Below, piece after piece: positions 19,576-44,064 of a stretch of DNA of 64,000 nt; the stretch's first letter is position 1; every line of letters begins with the position of its first letter. The translations under genes and the position numbers were made by a program. Origin of the DNA: Novosphingobium olei (lineage in GTDB: Bacteria; Pseudomonadota; Alphaproteobacteria; Sphingomonadales; Sphingomonadaceae); contig NZ_JABBGM010000001.1 in NCBI RefSeq assembly GCF_012927405.1, positions 502,001-566,000 on the forward strand, given 5' to 3'. Below the pieces are notes generated by a model. It saw nothing but the letters and a program-made list of their open reading frames with translations, did no database searches and had not been told where the DNA came from.

Positions 19576-22439
19576 TCGGCAGGCTCTGCGCGGTGCAGTT
19601 CGATCCGTCGCGAACGGCGCGCCTGCTCGGCATAGTCCGCCTGCCAGTCGCTGGGGCCGTTGCTGGGCGAAACCTGGACGGCGGTGACCTTGTATTCCGG
19701 GCAATTGGTGGCCCAGTCGGAGAAATCGGTGGTGACGACGTTGGCCTGCGTCTCGGGGTGGTGGAACGTGGTGTAGACGACGCCGGGGGCAACGCGCTCG
19801 GTAACCTTGGCGCGCAACGTCGTCTCGCCCGAGCGGCTGGCAAGTCGCACCCAGTCGCCATCCTGCAGCCCGCGGTTCTCGGCATCGGTCGGATGGATCT
19901 CGAGCACGTCCTCGCCGTGCCACATCGCGTTGGCGGTGCGCCGCGTCTGTGCGCCGACGTTGTATTGGCTGAGGATGCGGCCCGTGGTGAGCAGCAGCGG
20001 AAAGCGCGGGCCGGTTCGCTCATCGGTCGGAACGTAGTCGGTGACCACGAACCGGCCCTTGCCCCGGACAAATCCGTCGACGTGCATGATCGGGCTGCCA
20101 TCGGGCGCAGCGGCGTTGACCGGCCACTGCAGCGATCCTTCCGCATCGAGCCTTGCGTAGTTCACGCCCGAGAACGTGGGCGTGAGGCGCGCGATCTCGT
20201 CCATGATCTGCGAAGGGTGGGTGTAGTTCCAGCCGAGCCCCATGGCCCTGGCGAGTTCCTGCGTCACTTCCCAGTCGGCAAGGCCGTTGCGCGGCTCCAT
20301 CACCTTGCGCACCCGCTGGATGCGGCGTTCGGCGTTGGTGAACGTGCCGTCCTTTTCGAGGAAGGTCGAGCCCGGCAGAAAGACGTGCGCGTAGTTGGCG
20401 GTTTCGTTGAGGAACAGGTCGTGGACGATGACCAGTTCCATGGCGGCTAGTCCGGCCGCGACGTGGCGGGTGTCCGGGTCGGACTGGAGGATGTCCTCGC
20501 CCTGGATGTAAAGCGCCTTGAACGCTCCCTCGACCGCCGCATCGAGCATGTTCGGGATGCGCAAGCCCGGTTCGGGATCGATCGGAACGCCCCATTCCGC
20601 TTCGAACAGCGCGCGTGTCGCGGCGTCGGAGACGTGGCGATATCCCGACAGCTCGTGCGGGAAGCTGCCCATGTCGCAGGCGCCTTGCACGTTGTTCTGG
20701 CCGCGCAGCGGGTTCACGCCAACACCGCGCCGGCCGATATTGCCCGTCGCCATGGCGAGATTGGCGATGGCCATGACGGTAGAGGAGCCCTGGCTGTGTT
20801 CGGTAACGCCGAGGCCGTAGTAGATTGCTGCATTGCCGCCGGTCGCATAAAGCCGAGCCGCGGCCCTCACATCCTGCGGTGTGACACCGGTGACCTCCGC
20901 GAGAACCTCAGGGCTGTTGCGATCAATCGCGACGAAGTCGGCCCAGTGCCGGTATTCTTCCCAATCGCAGCGCGCGCGGATGAATTCTTCATCGGCGAGA
21001 CCTTCGATCACGATCACGTGCGCCATCGCGGTCAGCACCGCGACATTGGTGCCGGGCCGCAGCGGCAGGTGCAAATCCGCCGCAATGTGCGGCGAACGAA
21101 CGAGGTCGGTTCGGCGCGGGTCGATCACGATCAACCGGGCGCCCGGCCTGCCGTCCTTGCCGCGGATGCGCCGCTTCATCCGGCTGGCGAACACGGGGTG
21201 CGCGTCGGTGGGGTTGGCGCCGATCACGAGGATTACGTCGCTGTCGTCGACGCTGTCGAAATCCTGCGTGCCGGCTGAGGTGCCGAACGTGGTCTTGAGA
21301 CCATAACCGGTCGGCGAGTGGCAGACGCGGGCGCAGGTATCGACGTTGTTGGTGCCGAACCCTGCGCGTACCAGCTTCTGGACGAGGAATGTCTCTTCGT
21401 TGGTGCAGCGGCTGGAAGTGATGCCGCCAAGCGCATTGCGGCCGTGGCGTTCGCGCAGTTCTTGAAGGCGACGGGCAGTATAGGACAGCGCCTCTTCCCA
21501 GCTGACTTCGCGCCAGGGTTGGTCGATCGCATCGCGGATCATCGGCGAAAGGATCCGGTCGGCATGCTGGGCATAGCCCCAGGCGAAACGGCCTTTCACG
21601 CAGGAATGGCCGTGGTTGGCCTTGCCGTCCTTCCACGGGATCATCCGGACGAGCTGCTCGCCCCGCATTTCGGCGCGGAAGGTGCAGCCGACACCGCAAT
21701 AGGCGCAAGTGGTGACGACGGCGCGTTCGGGCTTGCCGATGTCCTTGACCGCCTTTTCCTGCAAGGTGGCGGTGGGGCAGGCCTGGACGCAGGCCCCGCA
21801 CGAGACGCACTCGGACGAGAAGAAGTCCTCTCCGGCAAGGCCCGCCGAAACCTTCGAGGCAAATCCGCGTCCCTCGATGGTCAGCGCGAGCGTGCCCTGG
21901 ACCTCGTCGCAGGCGCGCACGCAACGCGAGCAGGCGATGCACTTGGACGGGTCGAAGTCGAAGTAGGGGTTCGAGGTGTCGATCGCGGCGCCGAGATGGG
22001 TTTCCCCCTCATAGCCGTAGCGCACGTCGCGCAGGCCCACGGCGGCGGCCTGGTCCTGAAGCTCGCAATCGTTGTTGGCGCTGCAGGTGAGGCAATCGAG
22101 CGGGTGGTCTGAGATGTAGAGCTCCATGACCCCGCGACGCAGCTTCTGCAGGCGTGGCGTCTGGGTCTGCACCTTCATGCCTTCGGCCACGGGCGTCGTG
22201 CACGAAGCGGGGGTGCCGCGCATGCCCTCGATCTCGACAAGGCAGAGGCGGCATGAACCGAAGGCCTTCAGGTTGTCGCTGGCGCAGAGCTTGGGGATCG
22301 ATCCCCCGGCGAGCGCGGCGGCACGCATCACGCTGGTGCCGGCGGGCACGGTGACGGCGCGTCCGTCGATAGTGCAGGTGACGTGGTGATCGCCGTGCAC
22401 TTCCGGCGTGCCGAAATCGGCCTGGCGCTCATAACCCAT
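19572..22439 (-). CDS. fdsA: NAD-dependent formate dehydrogenase, molybdenum alpha subunit
   Basis: Catalytic subunit that oxidises formate to CO2 at a bis-MGD molybdenum centre in the cytoplasm. The 955 residues run in order: [2Fe-2S] (C52, C63, C66, C80), a His/Cys [4Fe-4S] (H112, C116, C119, C125), two ferredoxin clusters (C167-C177 and C211-C221), and the FDH [4Fe-4S] (C245, C248, C252, C280). The molybdopterin domain follows with the catalytic Mo-ligand Cys373 in RVCHSPTG, so this is a cysteine, not a selenocysteine, enzyme. The terminal domain binds MGD (RVAPGVVYTTFHHPETQANV). The start overlaps mobA by 11 bases. Confidence 0.97.
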   Translation of the reverse strand: MGYERQADFGTPEVHGDHHVTCTIDGRAVTVPAGTSVMRAAALAGGSIPKLCASDNLKAFGSCRLCLVEIEGMRGTPASCTTPVAEGMKVQTQTPRLQKLRRGVMELYISDHPLDCLTCSANNDCELQDQAAAVGLRDVRYGYEGETHLGAAIDTSNPYFDFDPSKCIACSRCVRACDEVQGTLALTIEGRGFASKVSAGLAGEDFFSSECVSCGACVQACPTATLQEKAVKDIGKPERAVVTTCAYCGVGCTFRAEMRGEQLVRMIPWKDGKANHGHSCVKGRFAWGYAQHADRILSPMIRDAIDQPWREVSWEEALSYTARRLQELRERHGRNALGGITSSRCTNEETFLVQKLVRAGFGTNNVDTCARVCHSPTGYGLKTTFGTSAGTQDFDSVDDSDVILVIGANPTDAHPVFASRMKRRIRGKDGRPGARLIVIDPRRTDLVRSPHIAADLHLPLRPGTNVAVLTAMAHVIVIEGLADEEFIRARCDWEEYRHWADFVAIDRNSPEVLAEVTGVTPQDVRAAARLYATGGNAAIYYGLGVTEHSQGSSTVMAIANLAMATGNIGRRGVGVNPLRGQNNVQGACDMGSFPHELSGYRHVSDAATRALFEAEWGVPIDPEPGLRIPNMLDAAVEGAFKALYIQGEDILQSDPDTRHVAAGLAAMELVIVHDLFLNETANYAHVFLPGSTFLEKDGTFTNAERRIQRVRKVMEPRNGLADWEVTQELARAMGLGWNYTHPSQIMDEIARLTPTFSGVNYARLDAEGSLQWPVNAAAPDGSPIMHVDGFVRGKGRFVVTDYVPTDERTGPRFPLLLTTGRILSQYNVGAQTRRTANAMWHGEDVLEIHPTDAENRGLQDGDWVRLASRSGETTLRAKVTERVAPGVVYTTFHHPETQANVVTTDFSDWATNCPEYKVTAVQVSPSNGPSDWQADYAEQARRSRRIELHRAEPAE

Positions 22440-36855: not shown

Positions 36856-37737
36856 ATGCGACTGCGCGATTTCTTCCTGCTTGTGCTGGTCTGCGTGATC
36901 TGGGCGCTCAGCAACGTGGTCAGTCGCATTGTCGTCGGGCAGTGGATGGTGCCGCCGCTGTTCTTCGCCGCCGTGCGATTCGCAGTGGTAATGTTGGCCA
37001 CTTTGCCATGGCTTTTGCCCATGCCCCGTCCGGCGTGGCGGATGATTGTCGTTGGGATGCTGATGGGCGGCGGCAACTTCGCCGTGCTGTTCCTCGGCTT
37101 GCGCACCGTCACGCCGTCCATGGCAGCCATTGTCGTCCAGTCGAGTGTCCCGATAACCACGCTGCTGTCGGTTGTTCTGCTTGGTGAACGCATTCACTGG
37201 CGTCGAGGGCTCGGTATTGCGCTCGCTCTTGCTGGCGTGCTGATCGTGGTATGGCAGCCGGGTCTGCAGCTGTCCGCCGGTGTCCTTTACATCCTCGGGG
37301 CAGCTTTTGCCGGCTCGCTTGGCGCGGTGCTGATGAAGCAGATGGAAGAAGTGCCGGCGATCCGCTTGCAGGCTTGGGTGGGGCTTACCTCGCTGCTGCC
37401 GCTCGCCCTGTTCTCGTGGGGGTTCGAGCATCACCAAATTGACCTTGCGTTGAGGCACGGCTGGCATTTCGGGGTCGCAATCGCCTTTTCGGCGCTTGTC
37501 GTCTCGGTCGGTGCGCACACCGTCTACTACAGCCTGATCAAGCGGTACGAGGCGAACCTGATCGCTCCGCTGACGCTGCTGACGCCGCTGTTCACCATCG
37601 CGCTGGGATATTTCATTACGCACGATCGGCTTGATGCAAGGATGCTGCTCGGTGCGGCGATCGCTCTCATCGGCGTGCTCATCGTGGCGTTGAGACGTAG
37701 CAAGGCACCAGTCGCCGAGGCGGCCGAGCACGGCTGA
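36856..37737 (+). CDS. EamA/DMT family transporter
   Basis: A 293-residue inner-membrane protein with about ten hydrophobic helices arranged as two EamA repeats. The N-terminal repeat opens with FFLLVLVCVIWALSNVVSR and the second has LGAAFAGSLGAVLMKQMEEV. Conserved features include SMAAIVVQSSVPITTLLSVV and LTLLTPLFTIALGYF. The substrate is unknown; relatives export amino acids or metabolites. ATG 36856 is taken; GTG 36841 in the same frame would add five residues. The C terminus nearly abuts the convergent regulator gene, with six bases between. Confidence 0.9.
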   Translation: MRLRDFFLLVLVCVIWALSNVVSRIVVGQWMVPPLFFAAVRFAVVMLATLPWLLPMPRPAWRMIVVGMLMGGGNFAVLFLGLRTVTPSMAAIVVQSSVPITTLLSVVLLGERIHWRRGLGIALALAGVLIVVWQPGLQLSAGVLYILGAAFAGSLGAVLMKQMEEVPAIRLQAWVGLTSLLPLALFSWGFEHHQIDLALRHGWHFGVAIAFSALVVSVGAHTVYYSLIKRYEANLIAPLTLLTPLFTIALGYFITHDRLDARMLLGAAIALIGVLIVALRRSKAPVAEAAEHG

Positions 37738-37743
37738 ACGGTA

Positions 37744-38112
37744 TCAGCCGTCTGCCGGGTGCGGTGCGTCCAGCAGTCTCGACCAAAGGGCGCTGGCATC
37801 GGCGCTGACTGCTTGCTGTGCCGCTTCCTGCATCGCGCGGTAGCGCGCCAGCACGAACCGCCCCAAATCGGTCAGCGTGGCGCCGCCATGCGCTCGGCCC
37901 GGTACCGTGGCGACAAGGGGTTCGTCCCAGCACCGGTTCATCACGTCCACCAGTGTCCATGCCCGGCGATAGCTCATGCCCAGGGCGCGCGCGCCGGCCG
38001 AGATGGAACCCTCGCGCGCGATCGCTTCGAGCAGGTCGGCCTTGCCCGGGCCAAACGCGATCTCTTCGCCGCAGGTCATGCGGATGGCGATGCGGAGCGC
38101 TGCGTCGGTCAT
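37744..38112 (-). CDS. ModE-like winged-helix regulator (DNA-binding domain only)
   Basis: A 122-residue protein resembling the N-terminal domain of the molybdate regulator ModE and LysR-type HTHs: LLEAIAREGSISAGARALGM, SYRRAWTLVDVMN, then LTDLGRFVLARYRAM. There is no molybdate-binding TOBE/MOP domain, so it is a stand-alone DNA-binding form. Its ATG overlaps the TetR stop (ATGA), so both regulators are made from one transcript. A link to the molybdenum formate dehydrogenase 13 kb away is possible but untested. Confidence 0.85.
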   Translation of the reverse strand: MTDAALRIAIRMTCGEEIAFGPGKADLLEAIAREGSISAGARALGMSYRRAWTLVDVMNRCWDEPLVATVPGRAHGGATLTDLGRFVLARYRAMQEAAQQAVSADASALWSRLLDAPHPADG

Positions 38113-38774
38113 GCCTTGTAGAGCCCGCGCAGCACGTCCCAGATAAGCGTATTGAGCTGCTCGATCCGCGCTTCGCCGAACGTCGGGCGCTGCAAAAGCA
38201 TGCCCATGTGCGCGCAAGTGACCAGGTCGCTCGCCAGCTTCATCGCTTCCCAGCGCGCGCGCCATTGCGGGAAGCTCTCGATCATCTCCGACACCCACAC
38301 TTCGTCGTACCGGCGCGCTGCCGGCTCGAACACCTCGCGCAGGGCTTCGTCGCTGCGGGCTGCGACGGCCAGTTCGACATAGGCGGCATATTCGGGGCTC
38401 TGCACGCTGCGCCAGTGCGCCTGGGTGGCGATCTCGACCAGGTTGTCCTCGCCCGCCTTGGCCATTCCGGAAAGGTAGTCGTCCAGGAACAGCCGCATGC
38501 GGGCATAGAACACGTGCTCCACCACCGCTGCCACGAGATCGGCGCGGGCGGGGAAGTGGTGCTGCATCGCGCCCCGCGAAATCCCGATCCGCGCCGCGAT
38601 GCGGTGCGTGGTCAGGCCGACATAACCGCCTTCCAGCAGACAGGCGATCGCGGCCTCGATGATCCGAAGCCGCGTGCGCGTGCTCTTCTGCTGTTGCCAG
38701 CGCTCCGGCTCGCCTTCGAGATCGGCGGGGCGCAGCGCACCCAGCATCCGCTGTTGCATCGTGGTTCTGGCCAT
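38109..38774 (-). CDS. TetR/AcrR family transcriptional regulator
   Basis: A 221-residue repressor-type protein. The N-terminal HTH runs about 33-80: RLRIIEAAIACLLEGGYVGL, TTHRIAARIGISRGAMQHHF, PARADLVAAVVEHVF. The C-terminal ligand-binding domain is helical. It is divergent from the TonB-dependent receptor gene with a 189-base shared upstream region, the normal arrangement for a local repressor of the receptor and P450 genes. The ligand is unknown. Confidence 0.92.
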   Translation of the reverse strand: MARTTMQQRMLGALRPADLEGEPERWQQQKSTRTRLRIIEAAIACLLEGGYVGLTTHRIAARIGISRGAMQHHFPARADLVAAVVEHVFYARMRLFLDDYLSGMAKAGEDNLVEIATQAHWRSVQSPEYAAYVELAVAARSDEALREVFEPAARRYDEVWVSEMIESFPQWRARWEAMKLASDLVTCAHMGMLLQRPTFGEARIEQLNTLIWDVLRGLYKA

Positions 38775-38884
38775 GGAGCCTCCGGGGCACCTCCTTGTCG
38801 GCGAAGTCCTGCATCAGCGCGAAGGCGTGCGCAATGGGCACCTGATCAAAGGCACAGTTTGCGGGGAGACCACGTCGGCGCAGA

Positions 38885-38904
38885 AACATGCCGACCGGAT
38901 TGTT
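38885..38904. promoter_or_regulatory. Imperfect inverted repeat in the TetR/TonB-receptor gap
   Basis: AACATGCCGA and CCGGATTGTT match as inverted arms at 7 of 10 positions, with outer AACA/TGTT. It lies 60-79 bases before the receptor start and 111-130 bases before the TetR start, a plausible repressor site. The match is imperfect and could be chance. Confidence 0.28.
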
Positions 38905-38963
38905 ATTGCCGGGGTGGAGCGAAGGGCGATCACAGCCAGGCTCCAGGGGAAGAGGAAGTCAGC

Positions 38964-41168
38964 ATGAAAACGCTCCACGCGTGCGCCCTCGCAGCCAGCG
39001 CAATCGCCATTTCCGCCGCAACGCCAGTCGCCGCCCAGGCGCAGTCTGCCGAAGATAACGGCGGTGTCGCCGAAATTGTCGTCACCGCGCAAAAGAAGGC
39101 CGAAAACCTGCAGAAAGTGCCGATCGCGGTCACTGCGCTGACCGGCGATGCGCTGCAGGCGGCGCAAGTGCGCAGCGTGTCGGATCTCACCAACTCACTG
39201 CCCAACGTCCAGATCAACAGCTTCTCGAATTCGCCCGATTCGGCGGTGTTCACCATCCGCGGCGTCGGCGTGAACGATGCCGACCCCTATGTCGGGACCA
39301 CGGTGTCTGTCGTGGTCGACGGGGTCGTCGTCGGCGTGAACACTGCCGCGCTGCTTTCGCTGTTCGACATTGAGCGTGTCGAAGTGCTTCGCGGGCCGCA
39401 GGGCACGCTGTTCGGCGCCAATACCACTGGCGGCGTGATCAACGTCGTGACCAAGCAGCCGACCGGCAAGACCGGGGGCGAAGCGCAGATCGTCTATGGC
39501 AACTACGACCAGATTGAAGCCGACGCCGCGCTGAATTTTCCCATCACCGACAGCCTCGCCGGCAAAGTCAGCGTGATGCACAATTCGAACGATGGCTTCT
39601 TCCGCAACACGGCCGACAACCGCCGCATCGGTCGTCGCGACGTGACGCAGTTGCGCGGCTATCTCAAGTATTCGGCTGGCGCGTACGACGGAACGCTGAT
39701 CGGCGAATACGTCAAGAGCCGCAACGGGTCGCAGACCGGCGTGGTCATCGCCGGCCCGGGCGAGCTGTTCTACACCCCCGGCCAGACCACCGATCCGTTC
39801 AGCTTCAAGCGCGGGCTCAGCAGCGACCAGCCCGATTACAACAACCGCGACACCTATGCGCTGACCTTCACCCAGAACGTCGACAGCGCGATCGGGAAGA
39901 TTACGTCGATCACCGCATGGCGCAAATACGATAGCGACCTCTATTCGGACGACGACGGCACCACACGCGTCCTGCTCGAAACGCGCCGCCAGACCCATCA
40001 CGAACAGTTCTCGCAGGAACTGCGCGACCTGCTGCAGATCGGCGATGCGACGCAGCTGATCTTCGGCGGTTATTACTTCCAGCAGAAGTACTTCCTGAAC
40101 CAGGGCGGTAAGCTCGACGGCTTCCTCCCCGGGCTCAGCCAGCCGCAGACGCAGGACCAGCACAACTGGTCGATCTCGGGCTTTGCCCAGCTCTACCAGA
40201 ACCTGACCCCCGAGCTGCGCCTGCAGGCCGGCATCCGATACAGTCACGAAAAGACCCGCGCGGTTTCGACCACCGCGAACGGCATCAACCCGAGCGGCGT
40301 TGCGACCTACGACGATCCGATCATCCCGGCCACCTTCATCCGCGCCGCAGGATCGAAGTCGTGGAACAACACCGGCTGGAAGATCGGGCTCGATTACCAG
40401 GCAGATCGCAACGTGCTGCTCTACGGCTACTACGCGCGGGGCTTCAAGTCGGGTGGCTTCACCGGCCGCATCGCCATTGCCGAGGATATCGGGCCGTTCA
40501 ATCCCGAGAAACTCGATACGTATGAAGTGGGCATCAAGAGCGACTTGCTCGACCACCACCTGCGCCTGAACCTTGCCGCCTTCTTCAACAAGTACCGCGA
40601 CATGCAGGTGGTGCAGAACATCACCTACCCGAGCGGCGCGAACTCGGCCTCGATCGCCAATGCCGGCCGCGCCGAAACGAAGGGCTTCGAACTTGAGCTG
40701 ACGGCCGCGCCGGCACGCGGGCTGACGCTCACCGGTTCGCTTGCCTACCTCGATGCCAAGTACAAGAAGTACGATACCAAGGTGCTTGGCGCGGGTGGCG
40801 CGCTGGTTGCGGTATCCTATGCCGGCAACCGCCTGATGAACGCGCCGGAATGGAGCGCGTCGGCCGGGGTCAACTATGCGACGCAGCTCGGCAACGGCAC
40901 GTTCAATGCCAACGCGCAGTACAGCTACACCAGCTCGAAATACACCGGCTACACCAACCTGCCGACCGACCTCATCGCCCCGGTCAATCTCGTCAACGCG
41001 AGCCTGTCCTGGGGGCCGGTCGATGCCGGTTGGAAGATAGGCGCCTATGCCCGCAACCTGTTCAACGAAAAGTACTTCAACCAGAAGCTGACGCTTGCCG
41101 GGATCGGCACGCTCGCCTCGCTCGGCACGCCGCGCGAATATGGCGCGACGTTCAACTACAGCTTCTGA
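38964..41168 (+). CDS. TonB-dependent outer-membrane receptor
   Basis: A 734-residue outer-membrane barrel. A signal peptide (about 1-26, ending PVAAQA) precedes the TonB box region EIVVTAQKK (37-45). The plug domain (about 50-165) has TIRGVGVNDADP and VEVLRGPQGTLFGANTTGGV, followed by a 22-strand barrel ending ATFNYSF with the C-terminal Phe recognised by Bam. AGAGGAAG precedes ATG 38964; the longer open frame upstream runs over the divergent regulators. In sphingomonads such receptors take up many hydrophobic or complexed substrates, not only iron. The adjacent P450 suggests an organic ligand. Confidence 0.94.
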   Translation: MKTLHACALAASAIAISAATPVAAQAQSAEDNGGVAEIVVTAQKKAENLQKVPIAVTALTGDALQAAQVRSVSDLTNSLPNVQINSFSNSPDSAVFTIRGVGVNDADPYVGTTVSVVVDGVVVGVNTAALLSLFDIERVEVLRGPQGTLFGANTTGGVINVVTKQPTGKTGGEAQIVYGNYDQIEADAALNFPITDSLAGKVSVMHNSNDGFFRNTADNRRIGRRDVTQLRGYLKYSAGAYDGTLIGEYVKSRNGSQTGVVIAGPGELFYTPGQTTDPFSFKRGLSSDQPDYNNRDTYALTFTQNVDSAIGKITSITAWRKYDSDLYSDDDGTTRVLLETRRQTHHEQFSQELRDLLQIGDATQLIFGGYYFQQKYFLNQGGKLDGFLPGLSQPQTQDQHNWSISGFAQLYQNLTPELRLQAGIRYSHEKTRAVSTTANGINPSGVATYDDPIIPATFIRAAGSKSWNNTGWKIGLDYQADRNVLLYGYYARGFKSGGFTGRIAIAEDIGPFNPEKLDTYEVGIKSDLLDHHLRLNLAAFFNKYRDMQVVQNITYPSGANSASIANAGRAETKGFELELTAAPARGLTLTGSLAYLDAKYKKYDTKVLGAGGALVAVSYAGNRLMNAPEWSASAGVNYATQLGNGTFNANAQYSYTSSKYTGYTNLPTDLIAPVNLVNASLSWGPVDAGWKIGAYARNLFNEKYFNQKLTLAGIGTLASLGTPREYGATFNYSF

Positions 41169-41183
41169 CCGGTTCCTCCCTGG

Positions 41184-41215
41184 CCCCGGTCGGCTTGCCG
41201 GCCGGGGTGCTTTTT
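41184..41215 (+). terminator. Strong terminator after the TonB receptor
   Basis: CCCCGGTCGGC (41184-41194) pairs over 11 positions, one T-G, with GCCGGCCGGGG (41197-41207); the innermost pair must open to form a CTTG loop. TGCTTTTT follows. It separates the receptor from the P450 gene transcriptionally. Confidence 0.88.
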
Positions 41216-41267
41216 CCGAGGGAAGCAACCGGCACCTCTCCAATTTGCGCGTTGTGAGCGAGCGGAT

Positions 41268-41283
41268 TTCATGACGTCGTGAA
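41268..41283 (+). promoter_or_regulatory. 16-base palindrome upstream of the P450 gene
   Basis: TTCATGACGTCGTGAA is self-complementary apart from one T/G position, centred on GACGTC. It lies 71 bases before the P450 start and after the receptor terminator, where the P450 promoter must be. It has the form of a dimeric repressor site. Confidence 0.5.
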
Positions 41284-41354
41284 TGGGCAGGGGAGATGCC
41301 CGGTCCGGCATGCTCCCCAACATTAAGACGATGGGCCAAGATCGGGAGAATGCC

Positions 41355-42593
41355 ATGGCAACGCTTGCCCCCTCGAACTCTGCTGCCGACCCGGCGCGGC
41401 CGGCGCATGTCCCGGCAGACCACGTTGTAGACGTCGATATTTACGCGCCGCCCCGCATTGCCGAGCTGGGCTTTCATCACGCATGGCGCGAACTTCAGGC
41501 GAACAGCCCGGCTGTGGTCTGGACCCCGCAGAACGAAGGGCACTGGATCGCGCTTTCGGGCGATGCGCTGCGCGATGTGCAGTCCGATGCGGCGCGCTTC
41601 TCCTCGCGCGTGATCGTGCTGCCGCGCTCGATCGGCGAAGGGCATGGACTGATCCCGACGACGATAGACCCGCCCGAGCATCGCCCCTATCGCGTGCTCC
41701 TCAACGCGCATCTCAATCCCGCCACGGTGCGCGGGCTGGACGATACCATCCGCCAGACCGCCATCGACCTGATAGACGGCTTCATCGCCGATGGCGGCTG
41801 CGACTTCACCGCCCGCTATGCCGAAATCTTCCCGATCCGCGTATTCATGGCGATGGTCGGCTTGCCCGAAAGCGAGGCGGCGACGATCCGCCACTGGGCT
41901 TCGTGCATGACACGACCCGGCATGGACATGAGCTTCGAGGACGCCAAGCAGGCGTTCTTCGACCGGCTTGCCCCGGTGGTAGACGAACGCCGCGCCCAGC
42001 CGGGCGAGGACATGCTGAGCGGGATGATGGCAGCGCAGATGCCCGGCCTCGACCGGCGCCTCACCCGTGACGAAGCGCTCAAGATTTCGACCCAGGTGCT
42101 GATCGCCGGGGTGGACACCGTGGTCAACTTCCTCGGCTTCGTCATCGTCGAACTCGCGCGCGACCCGGCGCTGCGGGCGCAGCTGCGCGCCATGGGGGAC
42201 AACGTGATGCCAGCGGTGAACGAATTCTTCCGCCGCTTCGGCCTTGTCACCATCGCCCGCGAAGTGCGCGACGATATCGCCGATTTCCACGGTGTGTCGC
42301 TCAAGGCGGGTGACATGATCTGCATCCCCACACAGGTTCACGGTCTCGACGAAACGCTCAACCCCGATCCGCTGGCGATCGACTTCGCCCGCCGCCGCGC
42401 GCCGCATTCGGCCTTTGGCAGCGGCCCGCACATGTGCCCGGGCCAGGAACTCGCGCGCAAGGAAGTCGCCATCACGCTGGAAGAATGGCTGCGCCGCATT
42501 CCCGACTTTGCGCTGGCGCCCGATGCCGATCTGTCGCCAGTCCCCGGCATCGTCGGCGCGCTGCGCCGGGTCACGCTGACCTGGCCGGCCTGA
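41355..42593 (+). CDS. Cytochrome P450, CYP101 (P450cam-like) family
   Basis: A soluble 412-residue class I P450. The haem motif is FGSGPHMCPG with the thiolate Cys361. The I-helix is AGVDTVVNFLGF with the acid-alcohol pair D254-T255, and the K-helix ExxR is seen in EFFRRFG. P450cam shares the DTVVNFLSF form and the tail (EWLxRIPDF, SGIV), which supports CYP101 placement. At the position of P450cam Tyr96, which binds the camphor ketone, this protein has His97 in GEGHGLIPTTIDPPEH. That argues for a norisoprenoid-like rather than camphor substrate. GGGAG (41344-41348) fixes ATG 41355. No ferredoxin or ferredoxin reductase gene is adjacent. Confidence 0.93.
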   Translation: MATLAPSNSAADPARPAHVPADHVVDVDIYAPPRIAELGFHHAWRELQANSPAVVWTPQNEGHWIALSGDALRDVQSDAARFSSRVIVLPRSIGEGHGLIPTTIDPPEHRPYRVLLNAHLNPATVRGLDDTIRQTAIDLIDGFIADGGCDFTARYAEIFPIRVFMAMVGLPESEAATIRHWASCMTRPGMDMSFEDAKQAFFDRLAPVVDERRAQPGEDMLSGMMAAQMPGLDRRLTRDEALKISTQVLIAGVDTVVNFLGFVIVELARDPALRAQLRAMGDNVMPAVNEFFRRFGLVTIAREVRDDIADFHGVSLKAGDMICIPTQVHGLDETLNPDPLAIDFARRRAPHSAFGSGPHMCPGQELARKEVAITLEEWLRRIPDFALAPDADLSPVPGIVGALRRVTLTWPA

Positions 42594-42648
42594 GGCCGCT
42601 TTCGCTTACAACACCTTCCAGTTTCAACGCAGCAAGGAACGATACGAC

Positions 42649-43392
42649 ATGGGCAAGATGGATGGCAGGGTCGCGCTGGTCACCGGCGCCGCCTCGGGGC
42701 TTGGCGCCGAAGACGCACGCGTGTTGGCGCGCGAAGGCGCCAAGGTCGTGCTGACCGACATGCAGGCCGATCAGGGCCGCGCCATTGCTGCCGAAGTCGG
42801 CGGGCTTTTCCTGGAACAGGACGTCCGTGACGAAGCGCGCTGGCACGAAGTCGTCGCCGAAACGCTCAAGGCCTATGGCCGGCTCGACACGCTCGTGAAC
42901 AATGCGGGCATCGTCCGCTTCGGCAATATCGAGGAACTGTCCTACGCCGACTACAAGCTGCAGATCGATGTCATGCTCGACGGTACGTTCCTCGGCTGCC
43001 AGGCGGCGATCCCGCACATGAGCCGCGACGGTTCGGGCTCGATCATCAACCTTGCCTCGATCGGCGGGATGAAGGGCATGAGCGCGATCCCCGCCTATGC
43101 CGGCGCCAAGGCGGGCATCATCGGCATGACCCGCTCGATCGCGGTGCACTGCAAGGAGCAGGGCTACCGCATTCGCTGCAATTCGATCGCGCCGGGCAGC
43201 ATCGTCACGCCGATGACCGCGCAGGCCCTGGCCGAACTGCCCGAAGACGGCGAAGGCACCGGCGGCCACACCCACCTGCAGGGCATGGGCCAGCCGATCG
43301 ATATCGCAAACATGGTGCTTTACCTTGCCAGCGACGATGGCAAGCACGTCTCCGGAACCAATATCGTCATCGACAACGCGGAAATCGCCTGA
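42649..43392 (+). CDS. Short-chain dehydrogenase/reductase (classical SDR)
   Basis: A 247-residue NAD(P)-dependent alcohol dehydrogenase type. The motifs are TGAASGLG (12-19), NNAG (84-87), and the catalytic S137-Y150-K154 (NLASIGG, YAGAKAG). Asp37 after the second strand (VVLTDMQ) indicates preference for NAD. A 55-base gap follows the P450 gene with no terminator, so they are probably cotranscribed, and the SDR may oxidise the alcohol made by the P450. The substrate is inferred only from context. Confidence 0.93.
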   Translation: MGKMDGRVALVTGAASGLGAEDARVLAREGAKVVLTDMQADQGRAIAAEVGGLFLEQDVRDEARWHEVVAETLKAYGRLDTLVNNAGIVRFGNIEELSYADYKLQIDVMLDGTFLGCQAAIPHMSRDGSGSIINLASIGGMKGMSAIPAYAGAKAGIIGMTRSIAVHCKEQGYRIRCNSIAPGSIVTPMTAQALAELPEDGEGTGGHTHLQGMGQPIDIANMVLYLASDDGKHVSGTNIVIDNAEIA

Positions 43393-43403
43393 TCCGGACG
43401 TCG

Positions 43404-43435
43404 GGGGAAGGGGCGGCCAACGGCCTCTTCCCCTT
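43404..43435. terminator. Hairpin between the convergent SDR and TlpA-like genes
   Basis: GGGGAAG (43404-43410) pairs with CTTCCCC (43427-43433), with an inner GGCC/GGCC stem. It sits in the 60-base gap between converging genes and could serve both strands, though T-runs are short. Confidence 0.5.
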
Positions 43436-43452
43436 GGCGGTTCGCAGGGGCT

Positions 43453-44064
43453 TTAGCCGCCCAGCGTGTCGGCCAGCAGCGCCCTGGTGCGCGCGCCAGA
43501 CCAGTCGTGCGCGCCGATCATCCGCCACACTTCGCGGCCCTTGGCGTCGTACAGCACGCTCGTGGGCAGCAAGCCCGTGTTGTAGTGGAAGCCGAGCTGG
43601 TTTTCGGGATCGAGCCAGGGTTCGAGGTGAGCGAACTTCTTCTGTTCGAACAGCGCCTTTACCTTTTCGGGCTGGCCCATGTCCTGGGAGATGGTAACCA
43701 CGCGCAGCTTGCCGGCATGCGCCGCGGCAAGGCTGTCGAGCATCGGCATTTCCAGCACGCAGGGGCCGCACCACGTGGCCCACAGGTTGATCAGCACCGG
43801 CTTGCCCTTCAGGTCCGCGCTGCGCAACGTCTTGCCGGCGGTGTCCTGGAACGCGAAGTCGGGCATCGCCGCGCCGCGATTGGCGATATCGAGCGTGCCG
43901 TTGAACTCGCCCTTGCTGCCTTGTGAAGCATTCGCGGCAGTTTCCGCGCCGGTGGGGGCGCTCGACGGTTGCGTGGCCGTGGGGCTTTGCCTATCGCACC
44001 CCGCGATCCCCAGAGTCAGGGGAAGCAGCAGCAAGGCGGGCGAGCGTAGCGAGATGAGCGGCAA
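43453..44064 (-). CDS. TlpA/ResA-like thioredoxin-fold lipoprotein
   Basis: A membrane-anchored, periplasmic thiol-disulfide protein. From the proposed TTG start at 44064 (GGAG six bases upstream) it has 203 residues, with a lipoprotein signal ending in IAGC (lipidated Cys23). A Ser/Thr/Ala linker follows, then the redox motif WCGPC (C99, C102) in [16 protein letters not shown] and the cis-Pro loop LLPTSVLYD. Relatives reduce apocytochromes or copper-chaperone thiols for oxidase assembly. No ATG gives a sensible signal peptide. The start lies inside the beginning of argH on the other strand. Confidence 0.85.

Follow-up and report, generated by a model that had tools for sequence, protein, structure and literature searches.

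The locus and its gene calls

Here, we analysed a stretch of 64,000 nucleotides from Novosphingobium olei (the window), in which a TetR-family regulator, a TonB-dependent receptor, a cytochrome P450 and a short-chain dehydrogenase (SDR) lie side by side. The four genes are real, correctly placed and neighbouring, and all four proteins score above the respective Pfam cut-offs, which bears out the grouping described in an earlier note on this DNA. The features are given below in window coordinates.

38109..38774, minus strand: TetR-family regulator (PF00440, 42.9 bits, cut-off 24)
38885..38904, no strand: operator-like palindrome AACATGCCGACCGGATTGTT between the TetR and receptor genes; relatives have their palindrome at the equivalent place
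38964..41168, plus strand: TonB-dependent outer-membrane receptor with plug and barrel (PF07715, PF00593); start chosen in this analysis
41183..41208, plus strand: hairpin resembling an intrinsic terminator, with T-run, separating the receptor and P450 genes (11 pairs, 9 of them GC; tail GCTTTTTCCG)
41355..42593, plus strand: cytochrome P450, assigned to subfamily CYP101B (PF00067); start chosen in this analysis
42649..43392, plus strand: classical SDR (PF00106, PF13561)
43400..43440 (approximate ends), plus strand: strong hairpin 3' of the SDR gene, without T-run (fold of 43385-43450)

The open frame of the P450 begins upstream of the chosen start, at 41283, and the stop of the TetR gene overlaps the start of an ORF with a LysR-type HTH (37744-38112) on the other side of the module. 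Both the plug (PF07715, 71 bits) and the β-barrel (PF00593, 155.8 bits) were found in the receptor. The SDR is of the classical type, as had been proposed, with the motifs TGAASGLG, NNAG and YAGAK (pattern TGxxxGxG, NNAG, YxxxK) at positions 12, 84 and 150 and an Asp at position 37, a residue generally associated with a preference for NAD. It scored 213 bits with the NCBIfam equivalog model of the trans-4-hydroxycyclohexanecarboxylate dehydrogenase ChcB1, below the cut-off of 400.

The earlier note had also described the four genes as bounded by strong terminators, which was not confirmed in this form, as the best terminator-like site of the region 37600-43700 is the internal one at 41183-41208. 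This region contains 8 such sites compared to 3.9 in shuffled sequences, and the folding of the internal hairpin is unexceptional (z −0.95). The segment 3' of the SDR gene folds strongly (−38.8 kcal/mol, z −3.2).

Genes for redox partners are indeed missing from the immediate neighbourhood, with neither a ferredoxin nor a reductase among the four. The sole Fer2 match in the window is weak (E 1.5e-4, 22224-22373) and falls into an open frame of 962 amino acids. Genome-wide, 11 Fer2 matches were obtained in genome G005 and 9 in the window genome, from which three and two small ferredoxins were extracted, respectively. Those of the window genome (C23:350127 and C15:4858, contig and position) are only candidates for the partner of the P450, and none of the three extracted from G005 is identical to PDB chain 3lxf (Arx).

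Placement of the P450

The earlier assignment of the P450 to family CYP101 was correct and can be refined. By the identity rule for P450 subfamilies (>55%), the enzyme belongs to CYP101B, sharing 73% identity with a gene on plasmid pNL2 of N. aromaticivorans that we identified as CYP101B1, because the structure sequences of CYP101D2, D1 and C1 account for the three further CYP101-like genes detected in the same genome and because it carries His85 in its own numbering. In a phylogenetic tree, the rows of which exclude CYP101A1, D5 and J2, window P450 and CYP101B1 share a clade of 19 rows (support 99/98); the CYP101D clade stands apart (100/100) and CYP101C1 sits on a long branch. The expected CYP101 features were found (Asp254-Thr255, Cys ligand at 361), and window P450 and CYP101B1 are identical at all 15 pocket positions checked.

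One of these positions had been singled out before. His97 of the window P450 occupies the place of Tyr96 of P450cam (a numbering that we transferred by motif) and corresponds to His85 of CYP101B1, confirming the earlier statement that CYP101B1 has a His there. As a clue to the substrate, the change from Tyr to His is weak on its own, because CYP101D5 oxidises ionones and not camphor even though the loop in question contains a Tyr, according to the text available to us (PMC9655578). CYP101B1 oxidises α-ionone and β-damascone at C3 with high selectivity, as stated in the accessible part of PMC13010359, and together with homology and pocket this points to a norisoprenoid as the probable substrate of the window P450. 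Reports on the β-ionone product of CYP101B1 disagree in the portions available to us, with 4-hydroxy in PMC9655578 and 3-hydroxy in PMC6237146.

A probable pathway divided between two contigs

On pNL2 (N. aromaticivorans DSM 12444, SARO_RS18520-18620), CYP101B1 lies in a single cluster that includes genes for Rieske, SnoaL, VOC, KstD-like, SDR and ThuA proteins. Its neighbourhood resembles the window locus in that a TetR gene diverges from a TonB receptor gene, with a palindrome in between, and an SDR and a CYP101B P450 with the same pocket are encoded; the SDR adjoining CYP101B1 is an orthologue of the window SDR (78% identity). In contrast to pNL2, the window holds this front end alone, in the order P450 then SDR and with the SnoaL gene absent, its receptor falls into a different clade (41% identity), and both the palindrome and the recognition helix of TetR are altered.

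Much of the remaining pNL2 cluster was found on contig C23 of the window genome (68-93% identity), where the core cluster lies under a second TetR; Rieske_2, VOC, SDR_c to SDR_f, Rieske_4 and ThuA are located at 143-162 kb (78-93%). For the KstD/ChcC-like dehydrogenase of pNL2, a flavoprotein, there was no match in the window genome at 1e-60 (12 of 12 candidates scored), nor was there a close orthologue of Rieske_1 (best 49%). With its core genes located on C23, the module is neither complete nor self-contained. Synteny and co-occurrence likewise rule out a stand-alone module: a core Rieske gene is found near 29 of 36 CYP101B loci (absent nearby in 7), a receptor in 27, TetR in 26 and this SDR in 22. 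Among 195 Novosphingobium genomes, all 24 with CYP101B have both the core Rieske and the ThuA gene, which overall occur in 71/195 and 70/195 (uncorrected for relatedness). Novosphingobium sp. P6W has the core genes in two pieces and no CYP101B; it uses abscisic acid as sole carbon source, as stated in the accessible text of PMC7996341, and this offers only a lead towards abscisic acid, but the core Rieske gene is present in the 71 genomes mentioned above. Cleavage of the bacterium's own carotenoids as a source of substrate was discarded, as no RPE65-family match was found in the window genome compared to three in N. aromaticivorans.

The window TetR, divergent from the receptor, has the recognition helix SRGAMQHHF and is 64% identical to the second TetR on C23 and 62% identical to that of pNL2. 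The palindrome is found upstream of TetR in 23 of 27 regions, and the remaining four, including the window, combine an altered palindrome with a recognition helix that has Gln at a position occupied by His in 29 of 29 other relatives. With the altered consensus, derived from the window locus and three other loci, AACATGCCGACCGGATTGTT is the sole site of the window genome within one mismatch, and one more lies at two. The palindrome is conserved and, at the level of sequence, has changed together with the recognition helix. A search for a palindrome shared between the window locus and that on C23 found none, and we dropped the idea of a common operator joining the two.

The receptor had been regarded as dedicated to the CYP101 enzyme. 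This pairing did not survive, as the trees of receptor and P450 disagree, and N. huizhouense, the nearest relative by P450, lacks the receptor at that place. Relatives of the receptor (72-84% identity) adjoin the core Rieske gene (Rieske_2) in seven genomes without CYP101B. Because its closest relative belongs to such a CYP101B-less core cluster and because the trees are discordant, the receptor is not CYP101-specific; genomic context supports its membership in a catabolic cluster.

Proposed role and alternatives

We consider it rather likely that the module represents the entry segment of a catabolic pathway spread over several loci, probably for norisoprenoids of the ionone or damascone type. 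The receptor would take a hydrophobic monocyclic terpenoid, most likely such a norisoprenoid, through the outer membrane, a role for which the TonB receptor EdcT offers a precedent with oestradiol (PMC7793797). CYP101B would then hydroxylate the ring, presumably at C3 because of its homology to CYP101B1 and the same pocket, and the SDR would oxidise the resulting alcohol to a ring ketone. Ring breakage may be achieved by the Rieske oxygenases on C23 together with SnoaL-like proteins, further SDRs, the ThuA-domain protein and an acyl-CoA dehydrogenase. TetR would repress the receptor unit via its own palindrome until the substrate or an early product triggers its release.

Sphingomonads that degrade oestrogens or bile salts suggest another substrate, namely that module and core cluster serve steroids or bile-acid-like compounds, which we regard as unlikely. 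Besides Rieske, SnoaL_4 and SDR genes, the pNL2 cluster encodes the flavoprotein, the best NCBIfam model of which is 3-ketosteroid-delta-1-dehydrogenase, but its 241 bits fall below the cut-off of 789, a 4-oxocyclohexanecarboxylate dehydrogenase model fits about as well (239 bits), and the window genome lacks this protein. Part of the cluster also occurs in the oestrogen-degrading strain ES2-1. According to the available part of PMC8540908, Sphingobium sp. Chol11 has Rieske monooxygenases with a steroid as substrate. A TonB receptor with a P450 finds its nearest precedent in Caenibius (Novosphingobium) tardaugens, where EdcA (P450) and EdcT (receptor) belong to one catabolic cluster, edc, for oestrogens; EdcT is tied to oestradiol, and strains deleted for it grow more slowly on the substrate (PMC7793797, in the text accessible to us). 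The edc system differs in that it acts on oestrogens by extradiol ring cleavage, and a text search of the same accessible text returned no mention of CYP101. The CYP101B pocket of the window P450 also argues against steroids, the listed CYP101B substrates being small.

Degradation of aromatic compounds is typical of the genus Novosphingobium, and the P450 might merely co-oxidise or detoxify alkyl-aromatic or alicyclic hydrocarbons. Phenylcyclohexane and p-cymene are indeed hydroxylated by CYP101B1 (accessible text of PMC8197338). We hold this reading to be improbable too, as the conserved neighbourhood would suit stepwise ring oxidation and ring-ketone chemistry and not a single detoxifying step.

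An ordinary siderophore receptor that lies beside the P450-SDR pair by chance is likewise improbable. Among NCBIfam models, the siderophore receptor model TIGR01783 fits best, but 177.1 bits are below the cut-off of 223.5. Most of the top PDB matches are receptors of the siderophore type, the terminator-like hairpin stands between receptor and P450, and this type of receptor is not tied to the P450; yet a receptor is found at that place in 27 of 36 CYP101B loci, and relatives adjoin Rieske_2 in CYP101B-less clusters.

Oxidation of camphor-type bicyclic monoterpenoids as by P450cam and CYP101D1/D2 is very improbable and, despite the common family and 44% and 40% identity to D2 and D1, contradicted by the separate D1/D2 clade and by a pocket unlike theirs at positions 87, 96, 98, 244, 247, 248 and 297 (Val, His, Leu, Gln, Ile, Ala, Ile). 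The camphor system likewise couples a CYP101 P450 to an alcohol-oxidising step, but has the Tyr96 pocket, camphor as substrate and adjacent redox partners.

The window thus adds a new CYP101B member in the context of a split pathway, for which we found no prior description among the literature matches listed. The same matches, with subscription papers mostly outside their coverage, listed no study of how CYP101B genes are clustered or regulated, and the text covered for the studied biocatalyst CYP101B1 contained no statement on its natural role. A conserved cluster with receptor, regulator and some 15-20 enzymes makes this role testable genetically. Should the substrate be a norisoprenoid, the cluster would show at the level of genes how bacteria degrade scent compounds derived from carotenoids, and the two regulator/operator pairs might serve as sensors.

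Beyond the proposed norisoprenoid entry segment, we tentatively put forward a broader and rather speculative scenario. CYP101B and the SDR might act as an adaptor that converts unoxidised ionone-type norisoprenoids to 3-oxo compounds and thereby feeds a widespread, undescribed aerobic Rieske/SnoaL/SDR/ThuA core pathway for oxidised trimethylcyclohexenone-type rings, common to sphingomonads and to marine gammaproteobacteria of the SAR92 type. This adaptor would, in the lineage of the window, have split off, gained a new receptor and received a duplicated TetR, the recognition helix and operator of which changed together. In SAR92/Porticoccaceae (loci L079-L093), the P450 has H96, L98, T101, Q244 and A248 in 15 of 15 loci, and ThuA, Rieske, SDR, acyl-CoA dehydrogenase and TonB receptor genes lie nearby in the three loci read closely. 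These loci differ from the window in P450 identity (46-48%), in Ile at positions 87 and 185, in gene order and in an AMP-ligase within the stretch.

A CYP101B enzyme in the window

The four genes called in the earlier note were all found with domains as expected, and the terminators lie at positions other than those it had named; the starts of receptor (38964) and P450 (41355) were chosen in our analysis. On the Novosphingobium olei genome, the window corresponds to C1:502001-566000.

38109-38774, minus strand: TetR-type regulator
38964-41168, plus strand: TonB-dependent receptor
41355-42593, plus strand: P450
42649-43392, plus strand: SDR

A 122-aa open reading frame with a LysR-type HTH (37744-38112, minus strand; PF00126, 30 bits), the start of which overlaps the TetR stop, is possibly co-transcribed with TetR.

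The solved chains nearest to the window P450 are CYP101 enzymes, and among plasmids, pNL2 (NC_009427) of Novosphingobium aromaticivorans DSM 12444 was found to carry a gene with 73% identity, the same genes being present on contig C3 of the matching genome G005. Three further CYP101-like genes were found in G005 (search at E 1e-60): one matches chain 3nv5 when compared by eye, which we take to be CYP101D2, the second agrees with 3lxh in all 421 residues compared, a near-equal chain bearing the name CYP101D1, and the third is identical to 3oft/3ofu. To our knowledge, there is no fifth CYP101 beside B1, C1, D1 and D2 in this strain. Since these four are named for the strain (PMC9655578), 3OFU is named as CYP101C1 (PMC6389848) and the other three genes match D2, D1 and C1, the pNL2 gene is CYP101B1 by elimination. 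Its product has His at position 85 in its own numbering, and a change of ‘HIS85 of CYP101B1’ to Phe was reported to decrease beta-ionone affinity (PMC10302094). The tree was built from 62 of 88 rows, after removal of identical rows, one partial row and two duplicates. In it, the smallest clade common to the window P450 and CYP101B1 comprises 19 rows with support of 99/98, separate from the D clade. The family call of the earlier note was good. The window P450 equals CYP101B1 at 15 of 15 aligned positions, and D1, D2 and C1 differ at several; the positions (87, 96, 98, 101, 185, 244, 247, 248, 251, 252, 295, 297, Cys, 395 and 396) are given in P450cam numbering, transferred by motif to an alignment without P450cam itself. 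H96, L98, T101, Q244 and A248 are present in all 15 marine gammaproteobacterial relatives of SAR92/Porticoccaceae type (46-48% identity), which differ at 87, 185 and mostly 297; CYP101D enzymes (40-44%) have another residue set. Caution is advised by CYP101D5, with an outward-facing Tyr in the His96 loop, for which a passage of PMC9655578 gives oxidation of ionones and not of camphor.

The wider cluster and its split arrangement

The gene order on pNL2 is SnoaL, SDR, TetR, TonB receptor, SnoaL, SDR, P450, Rieske_1, SnoaL, Rieske_2 (the core Rieske gene) and VOC, followed by SnoaL, Rieske_3, flavoprotein, hypothetical, four SDRs, Rieske_4, ThuA, acyl-CoA dehydrogenase and LuxR. The flavoprotein and the SDRs look like enzymes acting on ring ketones (3-ketosteroid-delta-1-dehydrogenase, 4-oxocyclohexanecarboxylate dehydrogenase and 4-hydroxycyclohexanecarboxylate dehydrogenase models), with all scores well below the equivalog cut-offs. 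Behind the cluster (L135, pNL2 164-200 kb) lie a GMC oxidoreductase, a thiolase, an acyl-CoA dehydrogenase and an alpha-ketoacid dehydrogenase set and, further along, an apocarotenoid dioxygenase adjoining a TetR.

Among 36 alphaproteobacterial CYP101B loci (the window, two named plasmids, six genome stretches and 27 named contigs, with one genome contributing two loci), Rieske_2 is present in at least 29, a receptor of the family (45% identity or more) in at least 27, TetR in at least 26 and SDR in at least 22, all minima because no more than about 10 kb of flank was covered and some contigs stop short of that. Left out of this tally were the fragments L077 and L098, the short-contig genome G113, and L076, L078, L097 and the SAR92-type loci (about 53% or less).

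The four-gene module is not self-contained: the core of the cluster sits on contig C23 of the 4.68 Mb N. olei genome. There, locus L021 (143-162 kb) holds orthologues with 68-93% identity of SnoaL_a, SDR_a, Rieske_2, VOC, SnoaL_d, SDR_c to SDR_f, Rieske_4, ThuA, acyl-CoA dehydrogenase and LuxR (first 87 residues seen), adjoined by a second TetR 64% identical to that of the window. In this genome, Rieske_1 has no close match (best 49%) and the pNL2 flavoprotein none at 1e-60. P450 and core Rieske gene are on separate contigs in N. huizhouense (G022) and about 200 kb apart in N. percolationis (G043) and G128; in G128, Rieske_1 and one SnoaL gene still adjoin the P450. The interest of the finding is this wider cluster together with its split arrangement, which is apparently separately regulated.

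Across 195 Novosphingobium genomes, CYP101B (62% identity or more; next matches 47% or less) occurs in at least 24, Rieske_2 (74% or more; one a contig-end fragment) in at least 71 and ThuA (77% or more) in at least 70, absences being less sure than presences because the best nine, eight and ten candidates per genome, respectively, were scored. All 24 CYP101B genomes have both Rieske_2 and ThuA (hypergeometric 1.6e-12 and 1.0e-12, kinship ignored), and CYP101B therefore looks like an accessory front end to a commoner core. In Novosphingobium sp. P6W (G059), for which abscisic acid use is reported (PMC7996341), core-cluster genes occur in two pieces (L165, L166), and none of the candidates scored was a CYP101B at the 62% threshold. 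Relatives of receptor, SDR_b and SnoaL_b lie together without a P450 in the same genome (L167, C2:1304-1320 kb).

Receptor exchange and regulator sites

Relatives of the window receptor (67% or more) were found in at least 14 genomes including N. olei, considering the best five candidates per genome; 12 of these have Rieske_2 and four CYP101B. The receptor lies at most about 2.5 kb from Rieske_2 in seven of the ten CYP101B-less genomes (G134, G033, G056, G002, G030, G024, G154), so that a dedicated pairing of receptor and P450, as suggested earlier, is not borne out. In G004 the two genes sit on separate contigs; for G116 and G061, there was no Rieske_2 match among the candidates scored. A TetR also adjoins the receptor in the clusters of G033, G056, G002 and G134. 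Receptors at the locus position form three main clades (100/100 each), the first containing the window receptor as sister to that of G134 (100/100) and those of three other CYP101B loci (L060, L062, L066). By these comparisons, conservation applies to the position and not to the receptor, which has been exchanged, because G128 and N. percolationis, relatives by P450, bear a second-clade receptor and the N. huizhouense locus has neither a receptor at that position nor a recognisable remnant. Precedents for receptor-linked uptake are oestradiol (PMC7793797) and, by expression, phenanthrene degradation (PMC13273656).

Upstream of TetR, 26 of 31 regions have the palindrome AACMGGCA-N5-GCCKGTT (up to two mismatches), where first-order resampling gives an expectation of 0.03. 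When three regions that are repeats and an unrelated TetR are taken out, the figure is 23 of 27, a count partly by construction because 18 of these regions supplied the alignments behind the pattern. It is present in all nine regions outside those alignments (L060-L066, L070, L095) and in five of six further core loci (L125, L126, L130, L131, L132), L127 having three mismatches. The remaining four of the 27 (window, L052, L103, L072) carry AACA-N-TCCG-NN-CGGA-N-TGTT, a consensus derived from these four themselves, at a similar place with one or two mismatches. Their TetRs share the recognition helix SRGAMQHHF, and His occupies the changed position in all 29 others (28 SRGAMHHHF, one SRGTMHHHF; 34 rows, one unrelated left out). 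Second TetRs at the core loci of N. olei, N. huizhouense and N. percolationis keep His and have the usual palindrome without mismatch. Exchange may be part of the history of this change, because the P450 of L072 (row L027) groups with His-keeping rows, apart from window, L052 and L103. Genome-wide in N. olei, the usual palindrome has a single exact copy, at L021; there are three further one-mismatch sites, with one match for the reversed control pattern too, and one of the three (C1:690569) is operator-like and upstream of a Rieske_4 homologue (60%).

A candidate third locus and the putative route

In the SAR92/Porticoccaceae-type genomes (L079-L093), the P450 with the CYP101B His-Leu-Thr-Gln-Ala pocket adjoins a ThuA gene, and three loci combine both with AMP-ligase, SDR, Rieske, oxidoreductase and receptor genes in one stretch. 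Among the loci compared, the latter five have their best homologues at C1:684-710 kb of N. olei (34-49%), ThuA on C23 (61-62%) and the P450 in the window (46-49%); some genes of the three stretches had no match, and one acyl-CoA dehydrogenase matched on pNL2 only. The C1 stretch (L168/L169) clusters AMP-ligase, SDRs, VOC, Rieske genes and TonB receptors, and is a lead towards a possible third pathway locus, a lead only because the comparison extended to the loci given here plus the remainder of the window.

In the best-fitting account, the receptor would import a putative natural substrate, CYP101B would hydroxylate its ring, the SDR would oxidise the alcohol to a ketone and the C23 enzymes would break the ring down. 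Reports on the beta-ionone product of CYP101B1 differ, naming 4-hydroxy (PMC9655578) or 3-hydroxy (PMC6237146), and phenylcyclohexane and p-cymene are also listed as substrates (PMC8197338). Elsewhere in N. olei, at C15:4858-5826, another P450 adjoins a small ferredoxin gene.
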